The notes under the pieces were generated by a model. The model saw only the letters and a program-made list of their open reading frames with translations, was not told the origin of the DNA and did not search any database. From NCBI GenBank assembly GCA_025331445.1, contig JAIWNE010000078.1:87683-151682 (forward strand): a stretch of DNA of 64,000 nt, written 5' to 3'. Within the stretch, counting starts at the first letter, position 1; every line of letters starts with the position of its first letter. The translations under genes and the position numbers were made by a program. Source of the stretch: Blakeslea trispora. Lineage: Eukaryota > Mucoromycota > Mucoromycetes > Mucorales > Choanephoraceae. This document shows positions 38,954 to 62,330 of the stretch, piece by piece.

Positions 38954-39265
38954 ATAAAATAAAAAAAAAAGCTTGGTTTTGTTGTTTATAGAATTATTGC
39001 TTTGTTCTTGTCTGTTGGGACTATCATTTCTATGTCGCACTGACAAAAAACTGTAAGGCTTGATGATGAGCTATAAAGCGAGGCAAAGTCTCACAGTTAT
39101 TGAGAAGCTAAAACACTTGCAAAAGAAAGATATAAGCTATTGAAATCAATTAGCTGCTTTGTAAAGAACTTTTTTCTCTTCGGCAAGGCTGTCATGTCTG
39201 GGGGGGTGAGAAGGTTTAGCAATTTAAAGCAATTAGAGTTTGTGTAACACTTACAACCTTGCTTA
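38954..39265. other. Intergenic region between Erv46 and the Fanzor-like gene
   Basis: About 310 bp joining the last housekeeping gene to the mobile-element island. It holds a G7 run at 39199-39205. The minus-strand frame at 39097-39441 overlaps the Fanzor 3' end in another frame and has no recognised domain. If the element carries a guide RNA, this is where a 3'-overlapping transcript would be sought. Confidence 0.4.
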
Positions 39266-42200
39266 TCACGCTTCGCGTGCAGCCAATACACCGCTTCTTG
39301 TACAAAAGGATGCTGTTTTGTGATTAAATTCAGTGTCGGAGGGACTGATGGTTTGACAGAAAGCAGGGAGGGTTTGCTGAAAGAGCAAAGTTGTAATCCC
39401 GGAAATGGCAATAGCAAGAGCAGACAGTTTGTCACGGCCACTTACCCCACGACCATTCTTGACAGATGGGCATTCAGGGTTCAAACAATGGAACGCGCCT
39501 TTCATGTTTCTATATACTGTTTTGCTTTTCACTTGTATGAGCTGCTTTGGATGTTGAAGTTTGTGAAAGCAATAGACACATGTCTGGGAAGTATAGTTTT
39601 CATTGGTAATGCTGACTGTTGTATAGCGGGCATGGTTATCCTGTTTCCAAGTTCCACCATAGCGCAAGTGCCGCTTGATTCTGGAGCCAACACCCATACC
39701 TCTATCACCAATCATCATAACCAACTGCTTCTGAGATGACTGAGGCTCTACTTTCTTCTTGCCTTTTCGATCTTTGACTGCTTCTACTTTAGGGTTCAAC
39801 CAAAGACGTTCTCGAGCACAAACACGGTCTTTTGACTTCTTCATAAACGTTTCTCTTTTCATATCACCCTTCTTCATCTTGGCATTCTGGTAGAAGCTTC
39901 TCACTACATTCTTATTATCTTGTAAACATCTGTACGCATTCCAAACATCTTCTTCATTCTTGATAGTACTGAAATTTTGACGTGACAATGCTGCTTCTGC
40001 TTCAGCGACTTGCGGACTGTTTTTCTTCATCAACGCCAACTCATGTCTGTAATGAAAGTTTCTACTTGCAAAATCAACATCTTCAGCCGAGACTGTCTTT
40101 GCTTCAGGCAATGGTTGGAATTCAGGTTCAGTTTGCTCAGTCAAAGCAGCGAAACGGTTGTGGAGCTTCAAATGGTAGACATATCGTTCAAGTGAAACAG
40201 GTACTGATTCTGACATTTTTACAATGCCATTGTCCGTGCCAGAGAAAACGAAATCTTGAGAAAGTTGTTGAGGATCTGGATCAAGTTTTGCATCTTCAGA
40301 CTTGAATATAGCACCTCGTTCATTGACATCAGCCTTTTGGATATGTCTCAAGGTCTTTTCAGCCTTCTGCTTTCCCTTGTCTTTTTTAGGCATGGCAACA
40401 GCTCTACGTCGAACATACAGGCTAAATCTTCGATCAGACAACTCGCGCTTGCATTCTTCAACAGCCAAATAACCCTCGTATCTTTTTTCTTTTAACAAAT
40501 TGATGAGCTGAGATATCTCCTTTCGAATGTCATCTAAAGCTTTCTTTTGTAGCTCGGTAGGTATAGCCACTGGCAGTTCCTGCTGACCAGATTGAGTACC
40601 TTTGAGTTTGTTGATTGCGTTGCGAATGATATTAAAGATGTCTGGCAAGCAGCCACAAAGACCGGCTTCAGCTTCTTCGGAAGGAGTGGATGGCCTAGAT
40701 GGTTCAGTTGGTAGAGCTTGAGTTGCAGAAGGCTCGGAGAAGGGGTTTTTCCAATATCGCTTAGCTACTTTGATTTGAATACCAAAGTTACCATCATTGT
40801 ATGCTTTATAAGCTTGCTTCAGGTTCTTGGACAAATCATTCACTTCTTTCTGCAAAGTAGCAATTTCATTCTTGAGGATATTCTTGTCTTTTTCGGACTG
40901 CAACAGGATTTGCTGCCATGTTGATTCTGGAAGATTGCTGGTGGAAGGCTGCTTTTTTAAAGAAGCTGTTGTTTCCTTGGGCTTGTTCATCTTTGTACCT
41001 AACAACCTTACATGCTGTAAGCCGGGCAGAATAGTGATGTTGTGTGCGAATATCAACTTGTTTTGTTTACATGCTGCTTGAATGCTTGCCATATTGAAAA
41101 AGGAATTAAATACAGCATCCTTATGATTATGACATCAATTGTACGTTGAAGTGGTGTACCATCATATTTGAAGAATCTCAGTTTTTGTTGACTATGATTA
41201 CAATACAAAGAGTAGAGGGATTCTGCATTCATTCGGAAAGCTTTTAGGCTGGCAGACGGCATAGGGCACATGTTGCGATTAAATATAGCATAACCGGCAC
41301 AGCGGAGAAGATTGTTTGAAAGGATAATAAATGGAAGTTGGTGGCCAATAGATTCATAGTTTGTTTTTGATGGGATATATGGTTTGAACCTTGTGACAAT
41401 AAGTAAGCATATATTAATCTCATGTTCTGCAAGATCAGCGCGTTTGTTCACCAAAGATTCACGAGTGAGATCATCATCTTCAAATAGTAAGCTTTTCATC
41501 AGACCCTTCAATTCAAATATACGCCTTCTACTAGCATCTTGGCTACTATTCCTCAAAGCATCTTCTTCTTCAATTATATCTACTTCTTCAACACTAGAAT
41601 AGTCATCGGGGGATGGAGGTAAAGCAGCTTCTTCAGATACTTTTTTGGCCATAGCTGATTCTTCTAATGGGGATCTCATTGGTTCTTTGCCTTTGCTAGA
41701 CTTGATATTTAGAGGCTTTGCAGATTGACTTCCAACAGATACAGCCAATTTTTTGCTGCCTTCAGCTCGTTCTTCATCACCTACGTCTTCAAGGGGTCTT
41801 TTTCGACTTGGACCAGGAGCACTTTCAGCAGCAACGTCTTTGGATGTAATTTGTTTTTGTGTCTCTCGCTTCTTCTAAATAAAGTGAAGATAAAGGTTTA
41901 TGAGTGCTACTGTTATAAGTCGAGATAAGAAAAAACTGTTACCTTCTGTATGATAAAATCTTCGTAAGTCTTGATACGCTTTTCGCTCTTGGCATTGTGT
42001 TGAATCCAAATGTTACCATGTTTTGCTTTTCGGTTGTACTTTCTTCATCGGTACTTCTCATTCCTGATGATCTTGCGATACACACTTGATGGTAATACAG
42101 AAATATCATGGTTTTGAACTTGTGGGGGCAACTGGCTCTCCTTGTTTTTCTTCTTTTGACGTTCTTTTGCACGGTCTGCGTAGGTACTGAGGTATTCTTG

Positions 42201-43413
42201 ATGCTTTTTTTCTCTCAAAGGAGACAGATGGATTCTTAAGAGTGCTAACAATAGTTTGTCCAACAGGATCTTGAACATTTTCTTCTCGGCCCACATGTTG
42301 GATAGATTGGTTTGATAGGTAGTCAGGGCAGACACGTAGCATTCTCTAGTCAGAGAGTTTCTTTCAAAGGTAGTCTAAGAGCTGTATTGTGGTTTTATGA
42401 TGTTGATTAGACTCAAGATCAGAGTGTATTTAGATTTGCTAGCATCAGTCATGCCTCTTGCTCCATAGAATTCAGATAGTAACAAACTCAGATGATTGCT
42501 GGTAAACAAACCGCGGATTTGTGCATCAAGAGCATCATGGTTTTGAATTAGTGGGCTAGCGGAATGCTGAACATGTTCTTGCATTTTGAAATTGTCAGGA
42601 AATATGTCATGTGTTCTAAAGCCTTCTGCTGCTTGGAAGTTGATTTGGTTTGTGTCCAGCACAAAAGTATGATTGCGAAATGAAAGCATGGTTAGAAATA
42701 CAAGGAGTTGGAAATCAGCTAAAAAAATCAGATGCAGAAGGGACAAGCATGTTCATCTTGGTATTAAATATGGTCTTGATTGGTTCATTCAAGTTTTTAC
42801 GCAAAATTGAGTTAAATGACACAGTACAGACAGCATAGTTTTCATCTTCAGTTTCCAGTTCTTCAGGCACATCTTCAGATAGCATAGGTATATCTTCAGA
42901 TGGAGAAGCAGCCATGCTCATGGGACTAGCTGCTGAAGGCGAAGCAGCACTCATTGGGCTTTGCATTGTCAAAGCAGAAAGGAAATCACTAGGAGTGCCT
43001 GCTCTAGCAGACTCTTGAAATTCTTGATAGATTTGATCAAAATTGTTTGATAGGTACTGATTCCAAGCGATATGACCCCTGGGCATATTATTATCATCTC
43101 TGAATCTTGCTGATGCTTCACCTTTTTCTAGATTGGCCATCTCCTCTACTTTGGCATAGAACCCTTTTGGAGCCGTCCTTTTAGCTTTTAGTACTTCTTT
43201 ACCATTAGCAGGGTTAGGCGATTTTTGTATCCATTCAATAATATAAGTTTTTGCAGCCATTTCAAATGCGCCGATGAATTCTTGTGCAGGTTGATCTCTC
43301 CATCTTCTTCGAGTAGCTTGGGTAACAACAGAAGCAGAAGCAGATGCTAGGATTGGTCCTCTGACATCTTCATCTGTATAAACAGAGTATTGTCTGGCCT
43401 TTTCACGTACCAT
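39266..43413 (-). CDS. Fanzor-like RuvC nuclease (eukaryotic TnpB homologue) with long N-terminal extension
   Basis: Model from ATG 43413: exon 1 43413-42801, exon 2 42718-41943, exon 3 41874-41145, exon 4 41076-39266; phases close. The C-terminal third has the OrfB/TnpB-type core: RuvC-I Asp in FSGTDNGIVKM (codon at 40232-40234), RuvC-II Glu in TNENYTSQTCVYC (39599-39601), a zinc ribbon (CVYC ... CLNPEC), and RuvC-III Asp in GRDKLSALAIA (39431-39433). All three catalytic acids are kept. Between I and II are helical and basic segments (KRETFMKKSKDRVCAR) and a glycine block MIGDRGMGVGSRI as in Fanzor. The roughly 700 residues before RuvC-I are helical and serine-rich, much longer than typical Fanzors. 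Two in-frame stops, TAG at 42375-42377 and TGA at 42043-42045, lie in exon 2. Each could sit in a small in-frame intron (69 nt and 60 or 45 nt) with weaker consensus. Confidence 0.72.
42043..42377 (-). other. Two in-frame stop codons in exon 2 of the Fanzor-like gene
   Basis: Reading exon 2 in frame, TAG (complement of 42375-42377) falls between NIIKPQYSS and TTFERNSLTREC, and TGA (complement of 42043-42045) falls between KIIRNEKYR and RKYNRKAKHGNIW. On both sides the protein looks equally coding-like. Candidate GT-AG pairs that would remove them keep the frame (69 nt; 60 or 45 nt) but their donors (GTCTAA, GTATTA, GTGTAT) are weak. So the copy is either spliced and intact or recently inactivated. 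Confidence 0.6.
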
Positions 43414-45030
43414 TAAAATGATGATACTGGCGCCTGATTTACAACTTGTGTAAGTTCATTACGTTTACCTTTACAATCTTCTATAGGCTAACTCACTTCA
43501 AATTGATTACCTGTATTATTTGCAGCACAACAATGAAATTAACAGAAAAAAAAAGGAATTAAAGAAGAGTGATATAAGAATGGTCCAATCCTTTTTCTAA
43601 TTTATCTCTCTATTTATATATTTCTAAAGCCAAGGCGATTTTCATTGTCTTCTATTATCAAGTAATATTCCTGTTTTTGGGGTTATGTTACACTTGAAGT
43701 GGGAAGCACAGAAAATAACTGCTTAAACTTTATCCGTTTGACACATCTTCTCAAAACAAAGAAAGTAGTACTCAATAAAGAAACAGAGTTTAATGATAAC
43801 TAAAATAGATAACCATATACAAAAAAAGATAAAATACACATCTATTTGATCAGACTCATCATGCTGACCTTCAAAGACATCTTTAATCGCTCGAAACGGC
43901 TGACAATAGGAAAGAACAATGAGCCGTTATTTGAGATAGAGGCTGATTGAACAATACAGTTAACTACAGTAATATAATTTTAGTGCGCAATACGATAAGA
44001 GAAACATAGGCAGGAAAAAAGCAGCAGGAGAAGAACTGCTCTTTGCTATGTCTGTGTTACAGCAATCAATGCAGTTTATTGATTCCTTCTAAAGATAGCC
44101 AATACATATGAAAAGACCTATTTGATAAGGGTATAATATGTTTTTACTTTAAAAATATTAGACTACCTGCTTGATATCGAGTTGTACATTTTAGATCGTT
44201 TTGTATGTGGAGTGAACGCTATTCACCAAAAAGATCATCAAATTTATTACTAAGAAAACAATAGCATGAAATCTTTTAAGGTAGACAGTTTTCTTTCTTT
44301 AGAGAAGGTAAGCTTTTGAAAGAACAAATAGGATCAAATGTTTGATTTATATAGACAAACGACAACAACCAAGTTTGATCTTGGTAGTTGTGGTCGCCCT
44401 TCTCAAACAGAAACAAACTCCCTTTAGTTTATAGCAGGAGGTAAATTATTTCATATGCCTCAAAATGTACAGTGCTGATGATTTTTACCCAAAAAATCAC
44501 ATTACAAGCTTGATTCCATAAATGGGACCCTTTTTTATTCGAGCATATCTTTCATTGACTCCTCTAATAGTGTTCCTTAAACGAAATCCAGCTCTTGTAA
44601 GGATTGCAGGGCGTTACTGGCTTCCTTTCTGAGACAAAGCTTACTTCGTTAGCTTGATTGTCTTACTCACTTTCGTTTCTTATTTGTAGTCGAACAAGCT
44701 TTCAATCACTGTAATTTTCTTGATGAATCTCTTTGGTAGAACAGAGAGAAAATTCTGTAGTTTTTAGTAATATTCTGTTTGAGCCCACTCATCAAAAAAC
44801 ATTGTATGCAAAAGCTTAAATGAGCGACGGTAATAACAACTTTTATTGACTAACAGTGTCCAATCGTATTGCTTATTACCGGCGGAGTAGTCCCCAGACA
44901 CAGCAGCCCCGCCTAATTTTTCAATGGGCGGCTTTTCAATTCCCAAAGTGCGGCCTTTTTTTTTTACCAAAGGGCGGCTTTCATTTTCTCAAATTTCGCT
45001 TTGCTTTAATCAAAGCTCGTATTATCACAG
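43414..45030. other. Gene-poor spacer within the mobile-element island
   Basis: AT-rich 1.6 kb upstream of the Fanzor-like gene. A near-palindrome lies at about 44367-44393. From about 44,920 to 44,990 a GC-rich module GGCGGC or GCGGCC recurs three times, about 24 nt apart, each followed by a T/C run. No terminal repeat pairing with the 39-kb side was found. Confidence 0.45.
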
Positions 45031-45268
45031 TGGCCTAGTTGGCGAAACGAAGACGGAAGATGTGGTTATAGGCTCTCTGGCCGCGCTTTTATTCTCAGAT
45101 TATTATATAATAAAAAAATTTCTAATCTATTACTCTTTATATCTTTCTAAGCTGAAAACGTCTATTTTTCGATCATCATTCTGTCAGGGTTGGGTGAACC
45201 AATGCCAAGGCATTTTCCAAGGGCGGGTAGCCACCACATCTTCCGTCTTCGTTTCGCCAACTAGGCCA
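45031..45268. mobile_element. MITE-like element with perfect 36-bp terminal inverted repeats
   Basis: Arm 45031-45066 (TGGCCTAGTTGGC...) is the exact reverse complement of 45233-45268. The 238-bp span has no open frame of interest. The perfect arms imply a young or actively maintained element. Immediate flanks (CACAG left, TTGTC right) do not give a clear target duplication. No transposase in the window has matching terminal repeats, so the mobilising family is unknown. Confidence 0.8.
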
Positions 45269-45373
45269 TTGTCCCTAAATGTCTAGAAATTTTGTCCTTT
45301 TGAAATAAAGAAACGTCACAAGGATCCGAGCCATAATAGAGACAGGGAATTTAGGTGTATGACAATCTTAACG

Positions 45374-46790: not shown

Positions 46791-47844
46791 CAGTCAGAGG
46801 ACAAAAAAATGTCCATTTTGAATCTCCGACAAGGTCATCCTTTGGCAGCAATCACTTTTTTCATGCGTGATGACATGCTTGAAACAGTTTTGTCGAGGTA
46901 TTCGACAGTGATACTGTTCCAAGCATCTACCAGCATCTCCTCATTGCTTTTTTGGCCTTTGAACCTGGACCAGTCTTGAGAAAAGCGTCGCTTCATTTCA
47001 CTCCACACGTTCTGTAGCTTTGGCTGTGTTATCTTCCATCAACACGGATCCAGGTTTGCTCTAGAGAAAGCCCAGAAAAACAGGCTTGTAGACAAGATCT
47101 ACGAATTCCTTGCTTGTTCTTCTGTCCTTTGGCAGGAACACCAACTCGGACTTGTTGTGACCACAAATAGCCCCCCAAACCATAATACTGGTTTGGCCAC
47201 TTTTGAAGAAAGGCTTCAGGCAGACCTTCCTATACTTCTCCTCAGGCAATCTCCAAACTTTCTTTTGCAAGATGTCCTTGCCAATTTCCACGCTGGACTC
47301 ATCTGTTCAAGTTACTTGCTTCCATTGCTCTACTATCCAGTTTTGGTGAGCTTTGGCAAATAGAAGCCTTTATTCTATACGTTCTTCCTTTAAAAGGCTT
47401 CTTTGCTGCAATTCTCTTATCATAGCCCAACCCACGTAACTCCCTTGCAATGGTTCTGGTGTGCACCTTTGCTGGCAGCTCTTACTGCAAAGAAGCAAAC
47501 ATAATAGATCTGTCCTTGTAGATGGCTTTCTTGAGGACTCTTTTGCTTCGTTCATCAAGAGACTTGGGTCTTCCAGAGCCCTCAGCTCTTTCAAAGGCAC
47601 CTCTACTTTTGAATGTCTTGATTACCTTGTTAACTGTAGTTGGGTCGAGTTCAAGTTCTTGAGCGATTCGACCTGTGGTAGGTTTCTTTGCCACCGATTA
47701 ACAATAATGGCTTTGAGACATGTTGCGAGTTTTAGTTAATTTTATTGAGAAAGAAAGGTAGAATGATGGGAATGAGACGTGTCATGTATTATCCTTTTTT
47801 TACGGAGATCCAAAAAATGAACATTTTTTTGTCCTCTGACTGTA
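46791..47844 (-). mobile_element. Defective Tc1/mariner element
   Basis: Terminal inverted repeats CAGTCAGAGGACAAAA... at 46791-46828 and (reversed) 47803-47842 agree over about 38 bp with a few differences. TA follows the right end (47843-47844); the left end is preceded by AT, so the TA duplication is not clean. Inside, minus strand, are transposase pieces: an N-terminal HTH frame from 47694 (GRIAQELELDPTTVNKVIKT, then GSGRPKSL), a middle part (RKVCLKPFFKSGQTSIMVWG) and a C-terminal part (NVWSEMKRRFSQDW). Between the middle part and the C-terminal part the stretch around the second and third catalytic acids is missing. Stops and frameshifts also occur. It cannot code for an active enzyme. 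Confidence 0.85.
46860..47694 (-). pseudogene. Broken Tc1/mariner transposase
   Basis: Starts MAKKPTTGRIAQELE (47694), with the bipartite helix-turn-helix and a GRPKSLDERSKR hook-like segment. The first catalytic Asp region is seen as DES-like (about 47,300) and the second as MEDN (about 47,042), after which the sequence jumps directly to QPKLQNVWSEMKRR, skipping the SPDLNPIE-type block. The tail ends KKVIAAKG. Several frame changes occur. It is therefore an internal-deletion derivative of a normal 330-350-residue transposase. Confidence 0.8.
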
Positions 47845-47849
47845 CATAT

Positions 47850-49355
47850 ATGATGGAAATCATGGCTTCTTCCGCTATTCATCATAAGGGGACCTTTCAA
47901 ACCCCGATACCATACCAAACGAACCAAAAGTCTTGGGTTGCTATTGTCAATGATGGCATCAAACGCACGTCGTCTAAGACACACGACCCATCAACTACTA
48001 GGCCTTCTGTTGAGCCTGGGCACCTCACAGAGAGCGCTGTACGAGATGTCTATCGTCATGTCGCGAGACCATTCTTAAAGGGCACGGTCTCCAATTCACT
48101 TCTCATCGACATCACGACCATCAGGGACGTTAAGGTTTTTGTTCAGGAACTCCATGAGGTTTGCAATGGCAGTGAGCACCTCTGGTCTGTTTCTGGCACT
48201 CTTCGTCGTGACTTTTCTCGTGTATATGCCGAGATCGTTGTATCTCCTTCCAAGTATATTCAGTTTGCACAGGAGGGTTTCGAGCTGAAAACTCTGGGCA
48301 AGTTTTTGGCGTTCACTCCTCTATCTCCATCGGCCGAAATTTTAAAGATCTCTTTATCAGGACTTCCATCACAATATGGTCGCCGTGAAGGTGGCTTAGA
48401 TCAGCTTCGTACTGATATGAATCATAATTTGAGGCAGTATGGTAAAATTATTGACAGTGGTTTAGTAACCAACTCTTCAGGCGTATACACTGGAAGTGGT
48501 TACGTCGTTCTTGAGCTTTCTGCTCCTGAGACTTCTGATTCTTCTTCATGTTCATTAAGCCATTTAATTGATTGGTCCTTCCAGCCAATTGATTATTCTG
48601 ATGTTTCTACTATCCGCTTGTGTCAATCCTTAGATAAAATTCAGGTTCGAGCCACTTGGGCTACCATGCCTCCTTTCTGTCGTTATTGTCACAGTTCGGA
48701 ACACGCCTTGAAAGATTGCTCCCTCAGACGTAAAGCTACTACTTGCTTCAATTGCCACGAAGTAGGTCACATCTCTAGATCTTGCCCTAGAAAAAATACA
48801 GGCACTGGCAAGAAGCGTAAAACGGTTATCGTTGAGAAACCTTCATCCGCCGCTCCACCCAAGTCTACTACACCTGATGAACCTCTAGTTCTAGCCTCCT
48901 CCACGTTTGAGACATTGGACACCCCTCAAGCTTCATCGTCTTTACCTGTTGCCCAAGAACCTTCAATCTCACTTACGTCTTCATCTTCCCTGGCCGTATC
49001 TCAGGATAACCTTCCTTCGACCTCTTCGGTCACTCGGCAATCCCAGCGTCTCAGGGAGCGCTCGGCAACACCTGAGCCCTCTTTAATTTTGGAGCAGCTC
49101 AAACCATCCCAGCCTGTAGCCCAATGTGTACATTGTGGGTTACAGGGCCATTCCCGCACTACCAGCCGTCATTGTTTGAAGAATCCCAAACGTTTGGCTG
49201 ATTCTGACTTTGATTCCCTACCTTCGTTTGGAAAGGTAGACTCTGATACTGAGATGGGAGACGATCTCCCCGATACTCAACTTTCCTATACTACTGATGC
49301 CGTTGAGACAGGCAATGATCTTCCAACTATAGTCTCACCCAACCAATCATTATAA
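47850..49355 (+). CDS. LINE ORF1 (zinc-knuckle nucleic-acid-binding protein)
   Basis: About 500 residues if started at the first methionine (47850) after the mariner end, or at MASSAIHH (47862). The frame happens to stay open upstream through the mariner repeat, so the longer start at 47745 is rejected. Three CCHC-like knuckles are seen: CRYCHSSEHALKDC, CFNCHEVGHISRSC and CVHCGLQGHSRTTSRHC. A Ser/Thr/Pro-rich linker separates the second and third. An N-terminal part contains DITTIRDVKVFVQELHEV, possibly an RRM-like fold. ORF1 proteins of LINEs bind element RNA. The frame is intact. Confidence 0.85.
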   Translation: MMEIMASSAIHHKGTFQTPIPYQTNQKSWVAIVNDGIKRTSSKTHDPSTTRPSVEPGHLTESAVRDVYRHVARPFLKGTVSNSLLIDITTIRDVKVFVQELHEVCNGSEHLWSVSGTLRRDFSRVYAEIVVSPSKYIQFAQEGFELKTLGKFLAFTPLSPSAEILKISLSGLPSQYGRREGGLDQLRTDMNHNLRQYGKIIDSGLVTNSSGVYTGSGYVVLELSAPETSDSSSCSLSHLIDWSFQPIDYSDVSTIRLCQSLDKIQVRATWATMPPFCRYCHSSEHALKDCSLRRKATTCFNCHEVGHISRSCPRKNTGTGKKRKTVIVEKPSSAAPPKSTTPDEPLVLASSTFETLDTPQASSSLPVAQEPSISLTSSSSLAVSQDNLPSTSSVTRQSQRLRERSATPEPSLILEQLKPSQPVAQCVHCGLQGHSRTTSRHCLKNPKRLADSDFDSLPSFGKVDSDTEMGDDLPDTQLSYTTDAVETGNDLPTIVSPNQSL

Positions 49356-49357
49356 TT

Positions 49358-52300
49358 ATGAATTTAAGTCCTTTATCCAGTCCATTCATTCCATCTACCC
49401 CTAATACTTCTCACTCATCTTCGCCCTCTTTTTCTCTCCAAATGGGAACGCTTAACTGTCGTAGCCTAGCTAAAACAGCTAACCCCCAAATCCGATCCTC
49501 GTTCATTCGCCATCTTCGCTCCCTTTCTTTTGACCTCTTAGCTCTCCAAGAGACGCATGCAGGTGACCCTCATCTTCAAGATATTCTTCATACTCAATTT
49601 CAGGCATCGTCTAGCATTTGGTCATCTCATTGTGGCCTCGTCAGTACCTCATCTGATATTGAGCTATCGAACTCTTTCATCAGTCGCTGTGGTCGCTTGA
49701 TAAACGCCACAGTTACTCACTGCAATCATTTATTTATTCCTTTCACCATCACTGTTGTCTACTTCCCTGCCACTAGATCGGACAGAGTTACCTTTCTAGA
49801 ATCAGCCACCTCTCCTCCTTTCTTCCCCTCGAACCCGTCTCGACATGTTGTTCTAGGGGATTTTAATTACACCTATGCTTCGCATACCCAAAGCACTCCG
49901 CGACAAGCTCCAACGGAATGGCTTGGATACATCGATCGTTTCTTTGTAGACGCCATCAACCGTCCTGGTTTCCCCGTTTCTCCTACTTTCCAAAACCATG
50001 TTGGTACTTCCTGTATTGACTATTGTTTTATTACAAAAGACATGTTTTCCACTGTTCAGATTGCCGAAGTTCCAGTCAGGTTTCTTCCCATCGAGTGGAC
50101 TGATCATCGACTTTTGTCTATACCTCTTCGTCTACCACCCGCTTCTTCTAATACCTCTACTGCCACTGCTGTTGGTAAAGGCTATTGGAAAGCTCACCCA
50201 CGGCTAGCAAGAGATCTGGAATTCAAGACTAAACTCCACTTGCGAGTGTCTCAAGCCGTTGAAGGATTCTCCTCTTCTCTCCCTGCTTGGCAAAAATGGG
50301 AACAACTGAAATCCGTAGCAGTCAAGACAGCGAGGGCACACTCTCGTCGTCAGAAGTACTCCCTGGCTCGCGCAGAAACTTTGCTCCAACGCAAACGTGC
50401 GAAGCTTGAGTCTAAGGTGACGGTTAATCCCTCCCTTCTTCCAGAGGTTTCACCACAGTTAAAGGTCGTACAAGATCAGCTTACTGTGCTCCAAAGCTAC
50501 CATGTCGAAACGCTTGCCTTGAAGGCCGGTATTCGCTGGCGAGAACAAGGTGAATTGTCCGCAGGTTATTTTAAGCGTACCGCCTCCATCCGAGCTGCTA
50601 AAGGTATCATTCCTCCTTTGCGCCACCCCTCTCTCAATCGCTTATGCGTTTCTAAAGAAGAAATGTTGGATGCTGCTTTTGTCTTCTATGACAAATTATA
50701 TGCACCGGATCCTATCGATCTCGAGGCTGTGCAATCCTTGCTGGATTCCATTCCTCCGTCAGCTACCCTCTCTCCTTCTGACGCCTCGCTTTTAGTGGAT
50801 CGTATCTCTTTTGATGAAATAGTCGAAGCTTTTGGCAGATGTCCTAAGATTAGCAGCCCTGGCATGGACGGCCTACCGTATCCTATTGTCCAGCTTATCG
50901 TGCTACATCCCGCTTGCCGAGAAATAGTGACACAAGTATACAATGACGCTCTGCTTCATGGCATCTTCCCTCCCTCGTGGTTAGCTACATCTGTTTGCTT
51001 GCTTCCAAAGACGGGAGATTTATCAGATTTACGCAACTGGCGCCCAATCTCCTTGATTAATGTGGATGCTAAGGTTTTCACTCGAATTCTTAATGCTCGG
51101 TTTTTATCTGTCACTGACGATATGATCAACCCATACCAATCTGGCTTTGTTCGCGGCCGGTTCATCGCGGATAATGGCCTTCTTATGAAGCTATTGATGG
51201 AACACGCCAACCTCACTCAGTCGCCTGCGATTGCTCTTCTTCTGGACCAAGAGAAAGCGTATGATAGGGTTCATCCATTGTATCTTCAGCTTGTGCTGGA
51301 GCGCTTTGGCTTTCCCCCTACCATCATTTCTAGCATTACCTCTCTGTTCTTTTCCACACAATTGTCTTTGAACATTAACGGATTCCATTCTGCGCCTGTA
51401 TTGCAGCGTCGTGGCCTACGCCAAGGTGACCCTCTATCACCAGTGCTCTTCAACCTCGCCTTCGAGCCTCTTCTTCGCTCCATCCTGGCCAGTACTTCCA
51501 TCCCTGGTTTCTCGCTACCTTCTCCTCTGACTCCTGCCCCCTCTTTAGAGTCTGGCCCCGTCAGGCTACTAGCCTATGCGGATGATATTGCATGCTTTCT
51601 CAATGCTCCTAACGAGCTGCAGAGTCTTCTTTCCCTTCTATCCGTATATTCGAAAGCCTCCAACGCACTCGTTAATTATCATAAGACCCAAGCGGTGTCT
51701 CTATCCGGCCAGCGAAGCCTTTTTCTCTCGATTGGTCTTCAGCCCTGGCTGACAGTCAAATATCCCAATGGCACGACGCCCGCTCTCCTACTCCCGTTAG
51801 ATATTTGGGCTATCCTTTGTTCACCAGTCTACACCAAAGGAATTTCTTCCTTAGTGACCTGCTCGAAAAGATTCGCCAGGCCTGTAGCATACACAGTTGT
51901 CGAGGCCTTTCCATCCGTGGTCGAGTTACTATCCTCAACTCCCTGATCTTGTCCAAACTCTGGCATGTACTGCGAGTGATATCTACCCCTCTTTCGTTCT
52001 TCGACAAGATTGGATCCGTCATCTCTGCATTCGTTTCTTATCGCATTTATCCTCGTCTGAGCTACTCCACCATGTGTCTGCCTCGATCTAAAGGCGGTTT
52101 AGGCCTACTTCACCCACTAAGGCAGCAGGGCAGCTTACAGTTACGCTGGCTAGTTCCCCTAATGGGAGACTTTCGAGTTGAAATAGCCTCAGCTTCCTTC
52201 TCGATGGATTCCGACTCCTGCGCTACCTCCTCCATAGCCTTGCCCAGACTGTTCAATTTTCTTTGCTCACACTGGTCCCACGATCCTGACTACCGGCTGC

Positions 52301-53376
52301 CCTTTTTGTTCCCTAGCCTGAGACCTCCAGCTCTCAACAGCTTGAACAGCAGCCTCTCTCTGTTCTTTCGCGCTCTGAGCCTACTACCTGACTCTTTGGA
52401 CTCCGTTGTTGCATCGCCTGCTACTGGACTCCACCTACCGGTCTCATCAGTTGTTACTCCTGACACTTTACAACACGTGAACCGTTCTCTGCTGTCCCTC
52501 CCTATGTCCCATCTTTACAAGCATGATGACTCTTCTGGCTTTCGCCTCCGACCAATAACATCTCGCAGTCATCTGATTAGCTTTCCCAACCTCAGTCGTG
52601 AATTTCATCGTCACATCTCTCATGACACTGTGAAATTTCGACTATTCTTCATCCGATTGTTTATTCCACCACAATATGCGGCTCAAGGTCCTCATGCCTT
52701 TCTTCCTGTGCCTAATTATCAGCGGTTTGATTTGCAACCTTTCCTTGTTCCCTGGCAACTCCATCTTCCGTCTCATCTTTCTTCTCTTTCCCGATCTCAG
52801 TATCGCAGGCTCTGTCTCCCTCCTAATGCCACTCCCTCTTCACCGCTTAAGGGCAGACAATGGGCTTCCTTTTGGAATTTTCCTCTGACCCATACAGGCC
52901 GCAATGTTTGGTTCCGTCTACTTCATGGAAAAATCCCTACGAGGGCTGTTCTCCACTCTCAGATGCCTGAATCCTTCCCTTCCTCCGCTTGTCCTCTCTG
53001 CCATCTTTCTCTCGAAGATCTCGACCACTTTGCTTTCTCTTGTCCTGGTAAGCTTGTAGTATGGCAATCAGTATAGAACACCTTCTTCGAGGGTACTGTC
53101 GATTTGTCTCACAACACTCTTCCGGTGAAGCAGGCCATCTTCTCACTCGAATTCCCTTCTCTCAACTCTTCTACGCCTACAGAGAAGAGTTCTGTAATTA
53201 TAGGCTCCACTATTCAATGCTTATGGCGTGCGTATTGGAGCTTCGTTTTCGATTCTCGACCTTTTTCTGAAGCCACGATTCTCAGTCAAACTCGCTTGCT
53301 CATTAATTCCTCTATCAAGGAGGACTTAGTTTTACGTGGCGTCCCTCATCGTCCACTTCCCTTTTTCTCTCTTTAG
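49358..53376 (+). pseudogene. LINE ORF2 (endonuclease plus reverse transcriptase), one frameshift and one stop
   Basis: Starts MNLSPLSSPF two bases after the ORF1 stop. Endonuclease motifs: MGTLNCRSL, LLALQETHAG, VVLGDFNYT and WTDHRLLSI. RT motifs: LRNWRPISLINVDAKVF, ALLLDQEKAYDRV, LRQGDPLSPVLFNLAF and LLAYADDIACF with the catalytic DD. Near 51,795 the frame shifts: LLLPL continues in another frame as RYLGYPLFTSLHQRN. This second frame carries the thumb and connection regions and a zinc finger CPLCHLSLEDLDHFAFSC. A single TAG at 53074-53076 interrupts it; the frame continues to EDLVLRGVPHRPLPFFSL. No RNase H domain is evident. Family is L1/Tad-like by layout; the clade is not decided. Confidence 0.85.
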
Positions 53377-56007: not shown

Positions 56008-58915
56008 ATGAACTCTCAAGTATCTTTAGACAACTCTCAACTTACCGTTACCGATTCTCAAATGAGACGAATGACGACTAGAGCCACTGTCACTTGCGAC
56101 TGGAATAATTTCGGTGATGCTGAATCGCTTGTTTTTGACGAAACTAGAGAGGAAAGCGAACACGAAGTTGTATCAACCGTCGTTGCTGAATCCTCCAACG
56201 ATATGAAGGAAGAACTTGGAAAATCTTCTTTGTAGGTGCCAAGTTTAGAAGCTCAAGCTTTGGGAAAAGAGTTCAATTGTCCAATGACCACTGCTAGAAG
56301 TAGCAAGAACAGCTACATTGTCTTGCAATGTAGACATGGCGGTGCTTATAGAAAGGCCAAGAAAGTTGAAGCCAACGCTGAGCGAGAAGAAAGCTACGAG
56401 GGTATGTGCTGCATAGAGAATTATAAACAAAATGGATTAGCTGAATCAAGCGATTGACTGGACTCCTTTTCAAAGATGCGAACAAGAGTGAACGACGCTA
56501 TCAATCTGGCAGAAAGCGATGCCCTTTGCGCATCTATGCTTCTGTAGGACGCGATACTGAGAGGCCCTGGAAGGTTCGCCAAGTCACTCTTGAGCATAAT
56601 CATGCTCTTAGCAGTGACTTGTCAACCTATTCGGTCTTTAGGAAGCTTCTCCGCGAAGATTTTGAAGCGGCTTGTAGCATGATGAAGAAGGGAGAAACAC
56701 CTAGAAGTGTTTTGAAGGTAAGATGAGCTTCTTTATGCTATATAATTTTTATACAGCTATGTTCATTTCGACGGTGTTGCATTCGAGAGATGAATATTTA
56801 GTTGATGGAATGTCTTTTAACACAAAATAAAGAGAGAAAATAAAGAATGAGTGAATTGATTTCATATCCTTTTCTCGTCTTGTATCATTTTTGCTACTTT
56901 AGACCAAATCCTTTTACTTTTGAATTCGACAGAATTCCATTTTATTCTTTCATTTGACAATACTAATATACATACATCTTACTAGTTCATGGTAGAAAAG
57001 CAAGTTGATAATAGCATCACATTAAGCGATTTGCATAACATTCAGCAACGCTTCTGCAATGACCAGTTTTCTGGTATGCCTGAGTTTATCTCAGATTTGG
57101 AGCAAACTGGGCATCAAGTACGTACCAGAGTAGACAGTGATGATAAGGTGAATGCTGTTTTCTTCATGCATGAGCATGGAAGGGATGAGCTCAGACGACT
57201 CCCGGGAATTGTCATCATTGATGCAACATACAAGACCAACAGCCACCGCATGGTGTTGCTCAACATTGTTGTTGCAGGCACAGTAGCTTCGGAGTATCGC
57301 CGAAGCCAACTTGCAACCATCCATGTTGCTGGATGTTGGATGAGAAAGGAGACTACCGAGTCTTATGAGTGGGCCATGAAGAAACTGAGAAGCATTGCTT
57401 GGCCCAGTGGAACTGATCCCAGTCTTCTTCCTGACAATTTTGTCACTGATAAGGATCAAGCCTTGATGAATGCTATTAAGGTTGTGCTTCCTGAGTCAAG
57501 ACAGATTTTGTGTTATATACACATTGTGCACAACTTTATGAAAAGACTCATAAAAAGCATGAGCAAGAAAGTCCAGCTTGGTAGTTTGATATTGAACTCT
57601 CTTATGAGTAAAGACTACTTATTTTTGCATTGCTCTTCTTTGTAGACAAAGAAAGCCGCCCTTTGCTGGAAAAGCGATTTATAGCTATTGCTCACAAGAT
57701 AGCTATTCAATCCAACACCAAGGAAGCATTGATAGGCTTCAAGAATGAGTACGATGCGTTTGTCTCTCAAGATAATCTTTGCGTTGATAAAGGCAAAGAA
57801 ATGAAAACGTATCTTGACAGGTAATGTGAATGAAAATAAGTTATAGAGCATTTAGCATGAATTTTTCTAACGTTCAAACTTGTATAGCATGATGGCCTTT
57901 CGCCGCCATTGGGTTGGCTATTATGTCAACACCTATGTGCACATGGGCAATCGCACGTCTAACAGAGTGGAAATTACTCACAGTGGCATTAAGCGCCACA
58001 ACAAGTCATCTTCTGGTTCGCTTGGCTTGGTGACCAAGGAAATTCGCGAATGGGTTGAAGGAAGAGTGAGTTAAATGTTACAATTGTGCCTGGATCAAGT
58101 TTGGTTAATTCGCTTTATTTTCGGATACAGGAAAGCTACAGAAACAGACAAACAGTACGTGAGTCTTTATTTGAAACGATATTGAAGGATAAGACTGGCC
58201 ATGAAATTGATGACAAGATGAGCCAACTGACAGGCAGGATCACCAGCTTTGCCTTTGATCGTATCCGTTTCGAATACATCAACTTGATGGACAGCAAAGC
58301 TAATCCTGATCATGTCTCTCATGTGGATCCTACTACAGGTAAATGCCTTTGCGAATTGCGTAGAGCATACCGTCTTCCTTGCAGACATCGAATTGCAAGA
58401 TATAATGGTCCTATTTCATTAGCTGCCGTCCACAGAAGATGGCACATTATGTATCAGAATGGCAGAGGTTAGTAGATTAGAGTATAGAGTATCAAACAAA
58501 TGTCTAATATCCGTGTTTTAAAGTTGCTACTATTGCTGAAATGACAAATGCCAGCAAGGAGCATAATCTTGAAGAGCATGAAGTCAGAAAGTCTGTAGAG
58601 GTTCAGTTGCAGAAGCTGCAATATATCAATGCAGACTTAAAAACTCAAGGAGAAAGAATCAGCTTAGAGGATGAGCTTAGAGCAATCATAAGCAAGTATT
58701 CTGATGACAAGCAAGTTGAGCGCATCCTTCCTCCTCCAATAGTATATGACATCAAAGGTCGTCCTAAAAACACTACCCAAGAAAAATTGCTTTGGAGAGA
58801 GAGATGGACAAAATCGCTCAACTTGCCAAACAAGAAAAAGCAAGTCAAAAAGAAGTTGCCCAAGGTATTGATACCAAAAACTGAAATTAGCATAGACACT
58901 AAATGGTTGAAGTAG
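56008..58915 (+). CDS. MULE transposase, FAR1-like DNA-binding domain, DDE core and SWIM zinc finger
   Basis: The gene reads through about eight exons. The N-terminal FAR1/WRKY-GCM1-type part is YIVLQCRHGGAYRKA..., CPLRIYASVGRD and TLEHNHAL. After VLK|FMVEKQVDN the DDE core has VIIDATYKTN (first Asp), FVTDKDQALMNAI (second Asp), CYIHIVHNF, and NRVEITHSGIKRHNK (Glu). The SWIM finger is CLCELRRAYRLPCRH. Introns have canonical sites (after ESYE, SVLK, KVQL, TYLD, VEGR, QNGR). One in-frame TAG at 56233-56235 is also the AG end of a plausible 66-nt in-frame intron, so it need not be a defect. Ends KTEISIDTKWLK. All catalytic residues are kept, so an active enzyme is possible. Confidence 0.82.
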
Positions 58916-59478
58916 TCCGCCTAGCCATTCTAATCCCTAAAGGATTGAGTGCCAAGCAAGTGACAGGCCACTTCAATTCTTCGCCTAATGGTAATTGTGG
59001 TTATAGAGCAATTGCTCATGCCATTTTCGATGATGAAGCCAATTTTGGCAAGGTCAAGCATGAGATGCTTTTGTGTTTGAGAAAGAATGAGCAATTCTAC
59101 CGCCAAGTTTTTGGTAGCTCTCCCTCCGCCTCTGAAGTTCTCTCTGGTACATTTGAAAGTATTCAAAGCAAGCTTAGCAACGACGCTTCAGCAGGTATCA
59201 CTGATAATTGGTTCCAATTTCCCGAAATGGTCCAATTAGCAGCAGATACCTTTAGCAGAGCTATTGCTTGCTATACGCCCGACAATCAAAGTACCACATT
59301 CGCTCCTTACTTTTACCCTCCCTTCCCTGTTCGCCCTATTCCATTGCAACTCTACAATAGTCATTTTTACATTGTAGAGCTCAAGCCCAATTCAAAGCCA
59401 AGATGGCCAAGAACTTACCCAGGACACTCCTTCAACTGCAAAAGACACTCTTTAGAAGACTTTTCGCTCATTTATTAA
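58903..59478 (+). CDS. OTU-family cysteine protease carried by the MULE
   Basis: 191 residues from ATG 58903, which lies inside the last codons of the transposase in another frame (13-nt overlap). The catalytic block is SPNGNCGYRAIAHAIF with Cys at about residue 32, followed by a helix VKHEMLLCLRKNEQFY. The His box near the end is LYNSHFYIVELK. These match OTU deubiquitinases. The protein has a short basic tail (RWPRTYPGHSFNCKRH). Position inside the terminal repeats shows it belongs to the element. Plant Kaonashi MULEs carry a ULP1-type peptidase; here an OTU fold takes that place. It could alternatively be translated as a fusion through a frameshift with the transposase. Confidence 0.82.
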   Translation: MVEVVRLAILIPKGLSAKQVTGHFNSSPNGNCGYRAIAHAIFDDEANFGKVKHEMLLCLRKNEQFYRQVFGSSPSASEVLSGTFESIQSKLSNDASAGITDNWFQFPEMVQLAADTFSRAIACYTPDNQSTTFAPYFYPPFPVRPIPLQLYNSHFYIVELKPNSKPRWPRTYPGHSFNCKRHSLEDFSLIY

Positions 59479-59545
59479 CCAAAAAAAAATACGATATGAA
59501 TAACTTATGTCACCTTTACTTTCTTTTTTTGAAATTTATTATGAG

Positions 59546-59645
59546 TTCATGCACCAAAATTCTCGCATATCATTGGCTGTTCAAATGCCTAAGTAGGCAT
59601 TTGACAAAACCTTGTTGCAAAACCTAGGTGCGCGAAACTTTAATC
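59546..59645 (-). repeat. MULE terminal inverted repeat, right
   Basis: Reverse complement matches 55851-55950 over about 100 bp with about ten differences. The TTTATTTT duplication follows at 59646-59653. Confidence 0.85.
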
Positions 59646-59730
59646 TTTATTTTTGTCCTTCAAAACTCTAAATACTTTTAATCTATAGTTGAAGAAAGTT
59701 CTGGTACTTTGGTCATATTATGTCGTGTTT

Positions 59731-62330
59731 GGAATCTACTTAAATGTTCCCGCCGGGATTTGAATAATAGGCATAAATCCTCAGTGGCTTTGGTGGCTTA
59801 CTGATTTCTTTACTTGTAATTTTACTTTGGTTCCTGAAGAAGTTTTTTGTTTTATTTTCTAAAAGTTTCTTAAACATCAAACATGTCAACCTCTCCTACC
59901 AGAATCGTATACAACTTAACCAACATTGAGACCGCTCTTGTCAGTACTGAAGTACCAGGAGTTTTAAGTCTCCCTTTGAACGAGACTGTATGTGTAGTAG
60001 CAAACGAGTGGAAAGAATGCTTCAACCGCATCAGCGAGTTGAGTGCAACCAAGTGGATCAAGAAGCGTAGCAGAAGTGCCGAAAACTTGATCATGGGTGA
60101 ATCCCGTGAATGTCACCGTAGAGGTCACCATACGCCGGCCAGAACTGTGCGTATCAGTCAAAAAGATTCGAAGAAAATTGGATGCACAGGAACTTTGAGC
60201 ATCCTTCAGTATGTTCAAAACCCTAGTGTTGTTGAACTCAAGATGTCGTTGGGCCATGCCAACCATGTCCCTGGCAGCAACAGCGACATCAGAACTCTTC
60301 CTCTGACCAGTGAGACCATAACGGTCATCGAAAGAAACTTGAGAAATGGCTCAAACTGCAGAGACATTAGAACTGCAGTTCTTCTCCAAATTGAGCAGTG
60401 GGAATGTGGCAGAAGAAAGCCCACTTATGAAGATGTTTACAATCGCATCGAGAAGGTGCGAAATAATGAGTTACTTTTTGAACATTTGAGTTGAGCAATA
60501 ATTCTTCTTGAGTAGATTAAAGAGACTCTTTATCGCCTTGATAAGAACGATTTAATTTCTTTGACGCCTGGCTTGATCGTCAATTGCCAATGAAGAACTA
60601 TGTTGTCTTTAACGGGCAACTTGCAATTGTACAGTCAGAATGACAAGCTCTTTGCCCGTGGGTTTCAATCCCCTGTCCAAGTACGACAGATGTCTCTCAA
60701 TAAATCTTTCTGTCTTGATGCAACACATGGCATCTCTCCTAGAAGTACTGAGGTGCTTTACAGTCTTGTTGCTCGGGACTCTCAAACCCACAAGGGATAT
60801 CCTGTTGCCTATATGGTAACCAACGATCAAACCGTTGGCCCATTGAATCAATGGCTTACCTTCTTGAAGCAACAAGGTAGCTTCAATCCTGAGGCAATTA
60901 CTATTGATTGTTGTGTGACCGAGCTTAATGCCATCCGCAGTGCATTGAATGGCACCTATGTCCATTACTGCGGGTTCCATGTGTTGAAGGCTTGGGAGAA
61001 AGGCCATGGACCAAAGTCACTCTTACTGTGCTCACACCAAGAACATGGCCAGTACAAAAGCAATTGGAGCAATTGCTGGGTCATGCTTCTCACAAGCGAA
61101 GGCTGAATTCAACGAGCTTCTTGCTCAATTCGAGTCGAATTGGAACAAGGAACCAGCTGCTTTCTGGTTACTTCGTAGACGCTGGACTCAAACGAGGAGC
61201 TGAAGGGTCGAGGATCAATCGTACATGCCGGAGAACAGAAGCATGCCACTAACAATTATATCGAGTCGTGGCATAACCAGCTTAAGACCGTATATCTTAG
61301 TCGACGCAGAATCAACCGACTAGATCATTTGACTTTCGTCTTGGTTAATGATGTCGAATTTCACTTCGCAGAGGAACGAGAACGTATCATGTTCAACAAT
61401 GGCAGAATGGGCCGGAGCAAAACGAACAAGCTAAACGTTCATTCTTTGCGAGAGAGGTTCCTGCAAACCAATTGCCTTCTTATTGAAAACCCATTGGGCA
61501 CCAATAGCAGTGATGTTGCTGTTGTCAATGGGAATTGGTTTGTAGGCTCCTTAACTTCCCCGTCTGTTAAGTACTCTGTTAGTGTTGAAGATGGCTTCAT
61601 TAGCAAATGTACGTGTCCTGTTTCAGGAAGAGAAGTTTGCCTTGTAAGCACATGTATCTCTTAAAGAGATACACCTCAGTTCCTTTTGTTCTACGATCGT
61701 GTCAGAAATGACCAACTGGTTGCTTTCAGAACTCAGGAAGCAACTCAAATTGACGAAGAAGGTATTACTTTCAAGGATAGAATAGGATTGCTCATGAGAA
61801 AAGACTAACGTTGATCTTTTTTAAGATGAAGAGATAGATGTAGTTGGTGATGATGAAGAGATAGATGTTGTGATAAGATGAAGCTGAAGCCAGCACTGTC
61901 AACTATCATATGAGAACCTCTTTGCGTTTGATGAAGTTGATGTTGACTTTGTTTGGAACGATGAAGAAGTTGAAGAAGGAGGCGAAGAAAGGAGTGCAGC
62001 TTGGGAACGTGTCTAAGTCTTTGATGTCGACACTGAACCATCAGAAAAGAAAAGTGCACAAGGCATCAAGAGCTGCATCCTTTGAAACAGAAGCTGCAGA
62101 AGATATTGCAAAACACCTAGAGCATATCTTAGAAAAACTAGACGGGGTTGTGGCAAGAAACCCCAATCTCTATAGAAATCCTAAAAACAGTTGCATTAAA
62201 AAACTTAGAAATAAAACAAAAAACTTCTTCAGGAACAAAATTAAAATTACAAGTAAAAGAAATCAGTAAGCCACCAAAGCCACTGAATTTATGCTATTAT
62301 TCAAATCCCGCGGAACATTAAGTAGATTCC
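59731..62330 (+). mobile_element. Second MULE-like element, decayed, about 130-bp terminal repeats
   Basis: The left end from 59731 (GGAATCTACTTAA) matches the reverse complement of the right end to 62330 over about 130 bp, including a stretch GTGGCTTTGGTGGCTTACTG found in both. The right copy has several single-base deletions. No clear target duplication was found at the edges. It contains a broken transposase and lies 85 bp from the end of the first MULE. The terminal repeats are unrelated to those of the first element. Confidence 0.82.
59883..61820 (+). pseudogene. Decayed MULE-like transposase with SWIM remnant
   Basis: An N-terminal frame (59883-60494, STSPTRIVYNLTNIE) is followed after a GTGCGA..GTAG intron by KETLYRLDKND and the core SFCLDATHGISP (first Asp), ITIDCCVTELNAIRSAL (second Asp) and HYCGFHVLKAWEKG. 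Beyond about 61,000 the coding sequence hops between frames (TKNMASTKAIGAIAGS, then GYFVDAGLKRG, then GEQKHATNNYIESWHNQLK with the Glu), showing several indels. A partial SWIM finger reads CTCPVSGREVC. The C-terminal part (61,820-62,270) has acidic and basic fragments in different frames. The element is inactive but the protein family is clear. Confidence 0.75.

Follow-up and report, generated by a model that had tools for sequence, protein, structure and literature searches.

Our analysis argues that a 64,000-nucleotide stretch of the genome of the fungus Blakeslea trispora (hereafter the window, meaning the whole stretch that was analysed) carries a copy of a transposon whose product is a strongly diverged relative of Fanzor1, a putative RuvC nuclease with a zinc ribbon. 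The reading that we favour, and to which as a whole we give a probability of roughly 0.6, is that this Fanzor1-related protein is a passenger nuclease, likely RNA-guided from the right end of the element, and that the transposase is supplied in trans. What stands out most is that the protein is so large, that sequence profiles fail to see it and that the element has a target motif on one side of its insertion only.

The gene and its predicted product

The sequence-only reading had placed a Fanzor-like gene at 39266-43413. Comparison with an intact copy (L009) agrees that 43413 and 39266 are the start and the stop of the coding sequence, but that reading mentioned neither the larger element around the gene (Table 1) nor the disruption of this copy. 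In intact copies of family A, to which the window copy belongs, the two frames measure 516 and 869 codons stop to stop and flank a 68-bp GT-AG stretch, and splicing L009 in silico at this GT-AG gives the predicted two-exon protein of an intact copy, of 1,362 residues with a single final stop and to our knowledge the largest of Fanzor type. Both frames are full length in six of the 15 copies examined (L009, L010, L011, L018, L020 and L022). The window copy differs from L009 by two frameshifting indels, its exon 1 is further split by stops (comparison of L016 with L009), and it is evidently dead. Among three intact family A copies, the synonymous and non-synonymous differences (14/14, 11/15 and 5/3) are too few to judge selection. 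When frames of at least 90 codons were listed in five copies, every other one overlapped the Fanzor-like gene, which is the only gene found in the element.

Table 1. Features of the transposon copy and its target in the window
Feature	Position in window	Strand	Basis
Full extent of the family A copy, 5,732 bp	39182..44913	-	blastn edges at 20 loci, both edges with the end pattern
5' terminal inverted repeat, 22 bp	44892..44913	-	comparison of copy ends
3' terminal inverted repeat, 22 bp	39182..39203	-	comparison of copy ends
Exon 1, disrupted in the window copy	41943..43413	-	start codon and intron by comparison with intact L009
Predicted intron, 68 bp, GT-AG	41875..41942	-	inferred from sequence
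Exon 2 with RuvC and zinc-ribbon core, one frameshift in the window copy	39266..41874	-	frame and comparison with L009
Stretch with D-E-D residues and zinc ribbon	39431..40234	-	motif positions, alignment, structure model
Right end, last codons and untranslated tail, near-identical in A and B, candidate omega-RNA scaffold	39182..39315	-	A versus B comparison
Left end, ~350 bp, A and B 92-100% identical per 50 columns	44564..44913	-	A versus B comparison
Target motif 5' of the element (-27 to -16; 11.8 bits in the window copy)	44929..44940	-	flank profile

The four motifs that had suggested a Fanzor-like protein, GTDNGIV, TNENYTS, CVYC/CLNPEC and GRDKLSALAI, were all found, in the order given, in the C-terminal part of the protein and within one minus-strand frame of 622 aa (window 39266-41134). 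Numbered along this frame, the Asp of GTDNGIV is residue 301 (window 40232-40234), the Glu of TNENYTSQTC residue 512 (39599-39601) and the Asp of GRDKLSALAI residue 568 (39431-39433), and the cysteines of CVYC and CLNPEC are residues 519/522 and 550/555, respectively. In an alignment of 28 rows, with only the rows that have a letter in the column counted, Asp301 is conserved in 25/25, Glu512 in 16/18 and Asp568 in 21/24, and Cys 519, 522, 550 and 555 in 17/17, 15/16, 21/23 and 24/24. At least 81 matches to the frame occur in the 37.2-Mb, 285-contig assembly of its genome: at least eight, the window copy included, form family A (98-100% identity over at least 594 residues), at least 13 form family B (49-51% identity across residues 3-622 of the window frame), and among the matches listed most of the others are fragments or bear stops. 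Since the frame is matched so often in the genome and the residues are conserved in the alignment, the motifs are not due to chance.

In sequence searches, of which the sequence-only reading had put forward a profile search as a check, the protein gave no relevant match above cut-off in Pfam, NCBIfam or PDB sequences, and two profile searches of the PDB retrieved no RuvC enzyme. The structure comparison that this reading had also put forward came out in its favour: with a model of the C-terminal core built from 28 sequences (mean pLDDT 78.5, against 49.4 for an earlier model from 12 patchy sequences), Fanzor1 chains took Foldseek ranks 1-6. In VIA, five of the top eight rows were Fanzor1 chains and the best 50 rows were all Fanzor, Cas12-type or TnpB chains, and 24 viral predicted structures matched the core model with E up to 0.001, several of them named transposase or Cas12f1-like TNB. 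The core is thus predicted by these models to have the RuvC (RNase H-like) fold of the TnpB/Cas12 type.

How close is this protein to the Fanzors? In PMC10711439, Fanzors are told from TnpB by DPG at RuvC-I, near exclusive to Fanzors, and by a Glu six residues before the zinc ribbon, and the ribbon is searched with the pattern CxxC x(12-18) CxxC x(4-8) D. Our protein has the alternative (Ealt) glutamate, six residues ahead of the first CxxC (ENYTSQTC and equivalents). The canonical Glu of prokaryotic TnpB lies ~50 residues before the ribbon, where a second acidic residue may serve in our protein as well; the Asp477 of GDRG, 42 residues before the first Cys, is present in 22/25 rows. RuvC-I reads DNG in the window copy and, by eye, DPG in no row of the alignment, and the ribbon runs CxxC, 27 residues, CxxxxC, 12 residues, D. 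Because the Ealt glutamate is there and DPG and the ribbon spacing are not, we call the protein Fanzor1-related and do not claim strict membership. The identity proposed from the sequence is partly supported: the predicted RuvC fold, the D-E-D residues and the Ealt glutamate speak for it, DPG, ribbon spacing and sequence profiles against it, and the zinc ribbon keeps its four conserved cysteines but has a spacing outside the published Fanzor pattern. The gene is encoded within a eukaryotic transposable element with inverted repeats, duplications and many copies, and its protein probably works like a Fanzor. Zinc-ribbon matches of the ordinary Fanzor/TnpB type, above the Pfam cut-off, were also seen at C1:618090, C20:33602, C233:102916, C13:12014, C223:49018 and C234:213168, and the two ordinary copies examined (L026 and L077) look broken.

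The element, its ends and its insertion site

At 20 loci compared by blastn the copies have abrupt common edges, which delimit elements of ~5.74 kb in family A and ~4.96 kb in family B, some copies being longer owing to inserts. Inverted repeats of 22 bp, GGCGGGGCTGCTGTGTCTGGGG and GGCAAGGCTGTCATGTCTGGGG, form the ends; they are imperfect, their consensus sequences agreeing at 17/22 positions, and the end pattern, with one mismatch allowed, occurs at 143 genome sites versus 0 for the reversed control. An 8-bp target duplication is perfect in 22 of the 28 copies with both ends, matches at 7/8 positions in two and is mismatched in four, of which the window copy is one. In three short copies, 753-755 bp long, nothing is left but the two ends, each time with a perfect duplication. 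Among the open-access papers listed by literature searches, no title or abstract opening describes the element.

Some irregularities were seen among the copies and around them. Two pairs (L012/L015 and L022/L024) have one flank in common and the other different, which suggests recombination between copies or an assembly error; P0005 looks like a chimaera of A- and B-type ends; and three left ends on one strand, 7.29 kb apart (C231:313008, 320299 and 327592), are possibly a tandem array or an assembly artefact. In the window, 45027-45066 and 45233-45272 form a 40-nt inverted repeat (98% complementary, 166 nt apart), apparently a second, short inverted-repeat element adjoining the transposon, and further frames lie at 47736-53076 and 56986-61664, some LINE-type (reverse transcriptase, endonuclease and zinc knuckle) and others coding for MULE transposase, of which the one at 60594 scores below its cut-off.

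Outside the element, the composition of 37 distinct 5' flanks (38 were taken and one duplicate was dropped) is near flat apart from the word ATTNAAAYTCCG at -27 to -16, with C in 28/37, C in 29/37 and G in 30/37 at -18 to -16. When each flank was scored with a leave-one-out profile at 98 places (both strands of 60 bp), the best place was exactly -27 in 28/37 flanks and -26 in two more, the other seven being scattered, and 6 bits or more were reached by 29/37 motif sites versus 13/3,589 other places. Of the eight sites below 6 bits, L054 and L059 are by their letters the shifted motif sites, L042 (4.4 bits) still has TCCG in place, and L041, L044, L045, L049 and L058 are without TCCG. On the 3' side, 0/18 flanks reach 8 bits and 3/18 reach 6, and the best scores inside the element, 8.3 bits in A and 9.9 bits in B, lie away from the ends. 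Since the motif has a fixed place on the 5' side and not on the 3' side, the usual order is motif, 7 bp, 8-bp duplicated target, element: in most copies insertion is at a fixed distance from ATTNAAAYTCCG and in one orientation. L041 and L045 are without the motif yet have perfect duplications, so the motif is strongly preferred, not essential. By eye, L049 is inserted inside the apparent 5' end of a family C element (see below).

As a Fanzor TAM, in the simple form of that idea, the motif was rejected, because 15 bp separate it from the element and it lies beyond the duplication, so that a guide from the right end would not adjoin it; no strong motif was found in the 37 5' flanks directly at the junction, where a TAM is expected. 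We take ATTNAAAYTCCG to bear a loose resemblance to a tRNA B box. A bacterial-code search for tRNAs without introns found none in the window or at 20 insertion loci, and tRNA targeting was rejected on this weak search and on the spacing of the motif, which is unlike that of a B box.

Over the first 20 windows of exon 2, families A and B agree at 48/121 four-fold sites, against 16/17 in the last 40 codons, and after the stop their tails differ only in a C-rich run; synonymous sites thus appear saturated between the two families, yet the ends are near-identical. According to PMC10432273, the conserved stretch from stop to repeat is the omega-RNA scaffold in SpuFz1 elements and the omega RNA of GtFz1 overlaps the last codons, and the right end of our element occupies the same position. 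By this analogy the protein would be RNA-guided. RNA-fold prediction gave z values of -0.62 and -1.42 for the right end, neither of them significant, and the right end has no Rfam match. Since the left end is conserved as well as the right, an exchange of ends between A and B could also explain the conserved right end.

Mobilisation of the element and the role of the protein

The DNA transposon superfamilies with 8-bp target duplications include hAT, Merlin and KDZ. These carry their own DDE transposase between the repeats, whereas the element described here has a single gene, without such a domain in the frames scanned. We looked for a partner by distance to 100 of the 143 end sites. Within 12 kb of a listed end there were 0/23 Merlin matches, 0 of the 20 KDZ places compared (38 rows were found) and 3/36 hAT matches, none of them closer than 6.7 kb, and no compared match of these three types lay inside a listed end pair. 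For MULE, with 149 matches and 22 places compared (one a placeholder without a match), two had an end within 12 kb (4.0 kb away on C231 and 8.6 kb away on C57); the MULE at C216:206908, between the two ends of the short copy C216:205654-210220, is probably a later insertion. One ordinary Fanzor match lies 3.5 kb from an end (C234). Merlin as the mobiliser was set aside, as four regions (of the 23 matches) are without these repeats or the motif, judged at both edges of one pair and at one edge of the other; in the same regions (L073-L076, on C271, C213, C278 and C90) the Merlin-domain matches lie in repeats without long inverted repeats, and two show, by eye, a tRNA-like stretch near the left edge. 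Among the places compared no mobilising transposase was identified, and an enzyme of the hAT, Merlin or KDZ type may still mobilise the element in trans.

A third family, C (L078-L083, L088 and L090-L094, on contigs C46, C247, C284, C279, C232, C264, C13, C79 and C236), is matched by the Rhizopus delemar relative P0030 at 31-68%, versus 25-31% for A and B. Its 3' ends stop at CAGTAT (eight of nine) or CAATAT (one), and of eight 5' places tried three begin with CAGTAT, one has only an inner end and four show nothing. Three copies with both ends have no inverted repeat or further duplication, and the 3'-end pattern with up to 3 mismatches matched at 14 sites without revealing a partner at any 5' edge examined, a search that an imperfect A/B-like repeat (5/22 differing) could escape. 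The family C element is possibly of the recombinase type, and, from few copies, one protein family seems to be carried by two kinds of element. Mainly because the ends of family C differ from those of A and B, the protein is probably a passenger nuclease rather than a transposase.

We propose that a giant RuvC/zinc-ribbon nuclease rides a cut-and-paste transposon inside which no transposase was recognised. An RNA from the right end, comprising the end of the gene, the inverted repeat and the duplication, would guide the protein of intact copies to a matching flank, for instance the empty site left by excision, and a cut at this target would favour restoration of the element or its spread through repair. 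A transposase acting in trans would recognise the 22-bp repeats, join them 8 bp apart and be positioned by ATTNAAAYTCCG. We infer, in this scheme, the nuclease activity, the RNA guide, the role in maintenance and the supply of transposase in trans.

Might the protein itself be the transposase? The RuvC core and the long N-terminal part would then bind the repeats, read ATTNAAAYTCCG and make the 8-nt staggered joint, a reading that we consider unlikely. It would account for an element with one gene, for an insertion rigidly placed and oriented and for listed end pairs devoid of any compared hAT, Merlin or KDZ match, and cuts at 7 and 15 nt from the motif, as the junctions suggest, would leave a 5' overhang, the polarity produced by Cas12-type enzymes and by DDE transposases alike. 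Against it, the family C protein is carried by an element that ends differently, with CAGTAT on either side, and we know of no RuvC or Fanzor transposase. Known Fanzor1 elements, as described in PMC3627910, belong to several transposon superfamilies, and Fanzor is not their transposase. A role as integrase of its own element, in which the protein would recognise ATTNAAAYTCCG, alone or with a short RNA, generate an 8-nt 5' overhang by cutting 7 and 15 nt downstream, and join the ends in one orientation, seems to us distinctly improbable.

A further reading keeps the Fanzor ancestry of the core and supposes that the guide RNA was lost, the protein now being a DNA-binding regulator or a protein-only nuclease whose N-terminal part chooses the target. 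The size of the protein, DNG, the altered ribbon spacing, the weak right-end fold and a junction without a TAM-like motif would fit such a loss, but the catalytic residues are conserved and the right end is still placed and conserved as expected for an omega RNA, and we hold this reading, too, to be unlikely. A chance resemblance to Fanzor, with a core of some other fold, is very improbable: no significant sequence profile and a poor first core model would agree with it, but the 28-sequence model folds, and the VIA rows and viral structures matching it point to RuvC enzymes, so that the predicted structures already largely refute the idea.

Comparison with known Fanzor elements

Read as a Fanzor1-related passenger, the protein adds a Mucorales Fanzor lineage unseen by the sequence profiles tried, in a transposon whose insertion point a DNA word beyond the duplication fixes with almost single-base precision. 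The same system could be used to study the role of a Fanzor in the life of its transposon and the choice of one site and one orientation by a eukaryotic cut-and-paste element. If RNA guidance had been lost or turned to integration, the protein would be a natural bridge from nuclease to integrase.

SpuFz1 of Spizellomyces punctatus has 633 aa, and its element, Spu-1, is 2.1 kb long and has TA duplications, in contrast to the 1,362 aa, 5.0-5.7 kb, 8-bp duplications, asymmetric target motif and DNG of our element; the 'ghost' elements of SpuFz1, as they appear in PMC10432273, are like the ends-only copies found here. PpFz1 of Parasitella parasitica was not retrieved by sequence or profile search of PDB sequences. 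As PMC3627910 describes them, the MuDR-like elements ROr-4, PBl-3 and MCi-4 (Rhizopus, Phycomyces and Mucor) likewise carry Fanzor1 in Mucorales inverted-repeat transposons without a transposase gene. These have 9-bp duplications and MuDR-type repeats, whereas the element described here has 8-bp duplications and other repeats.
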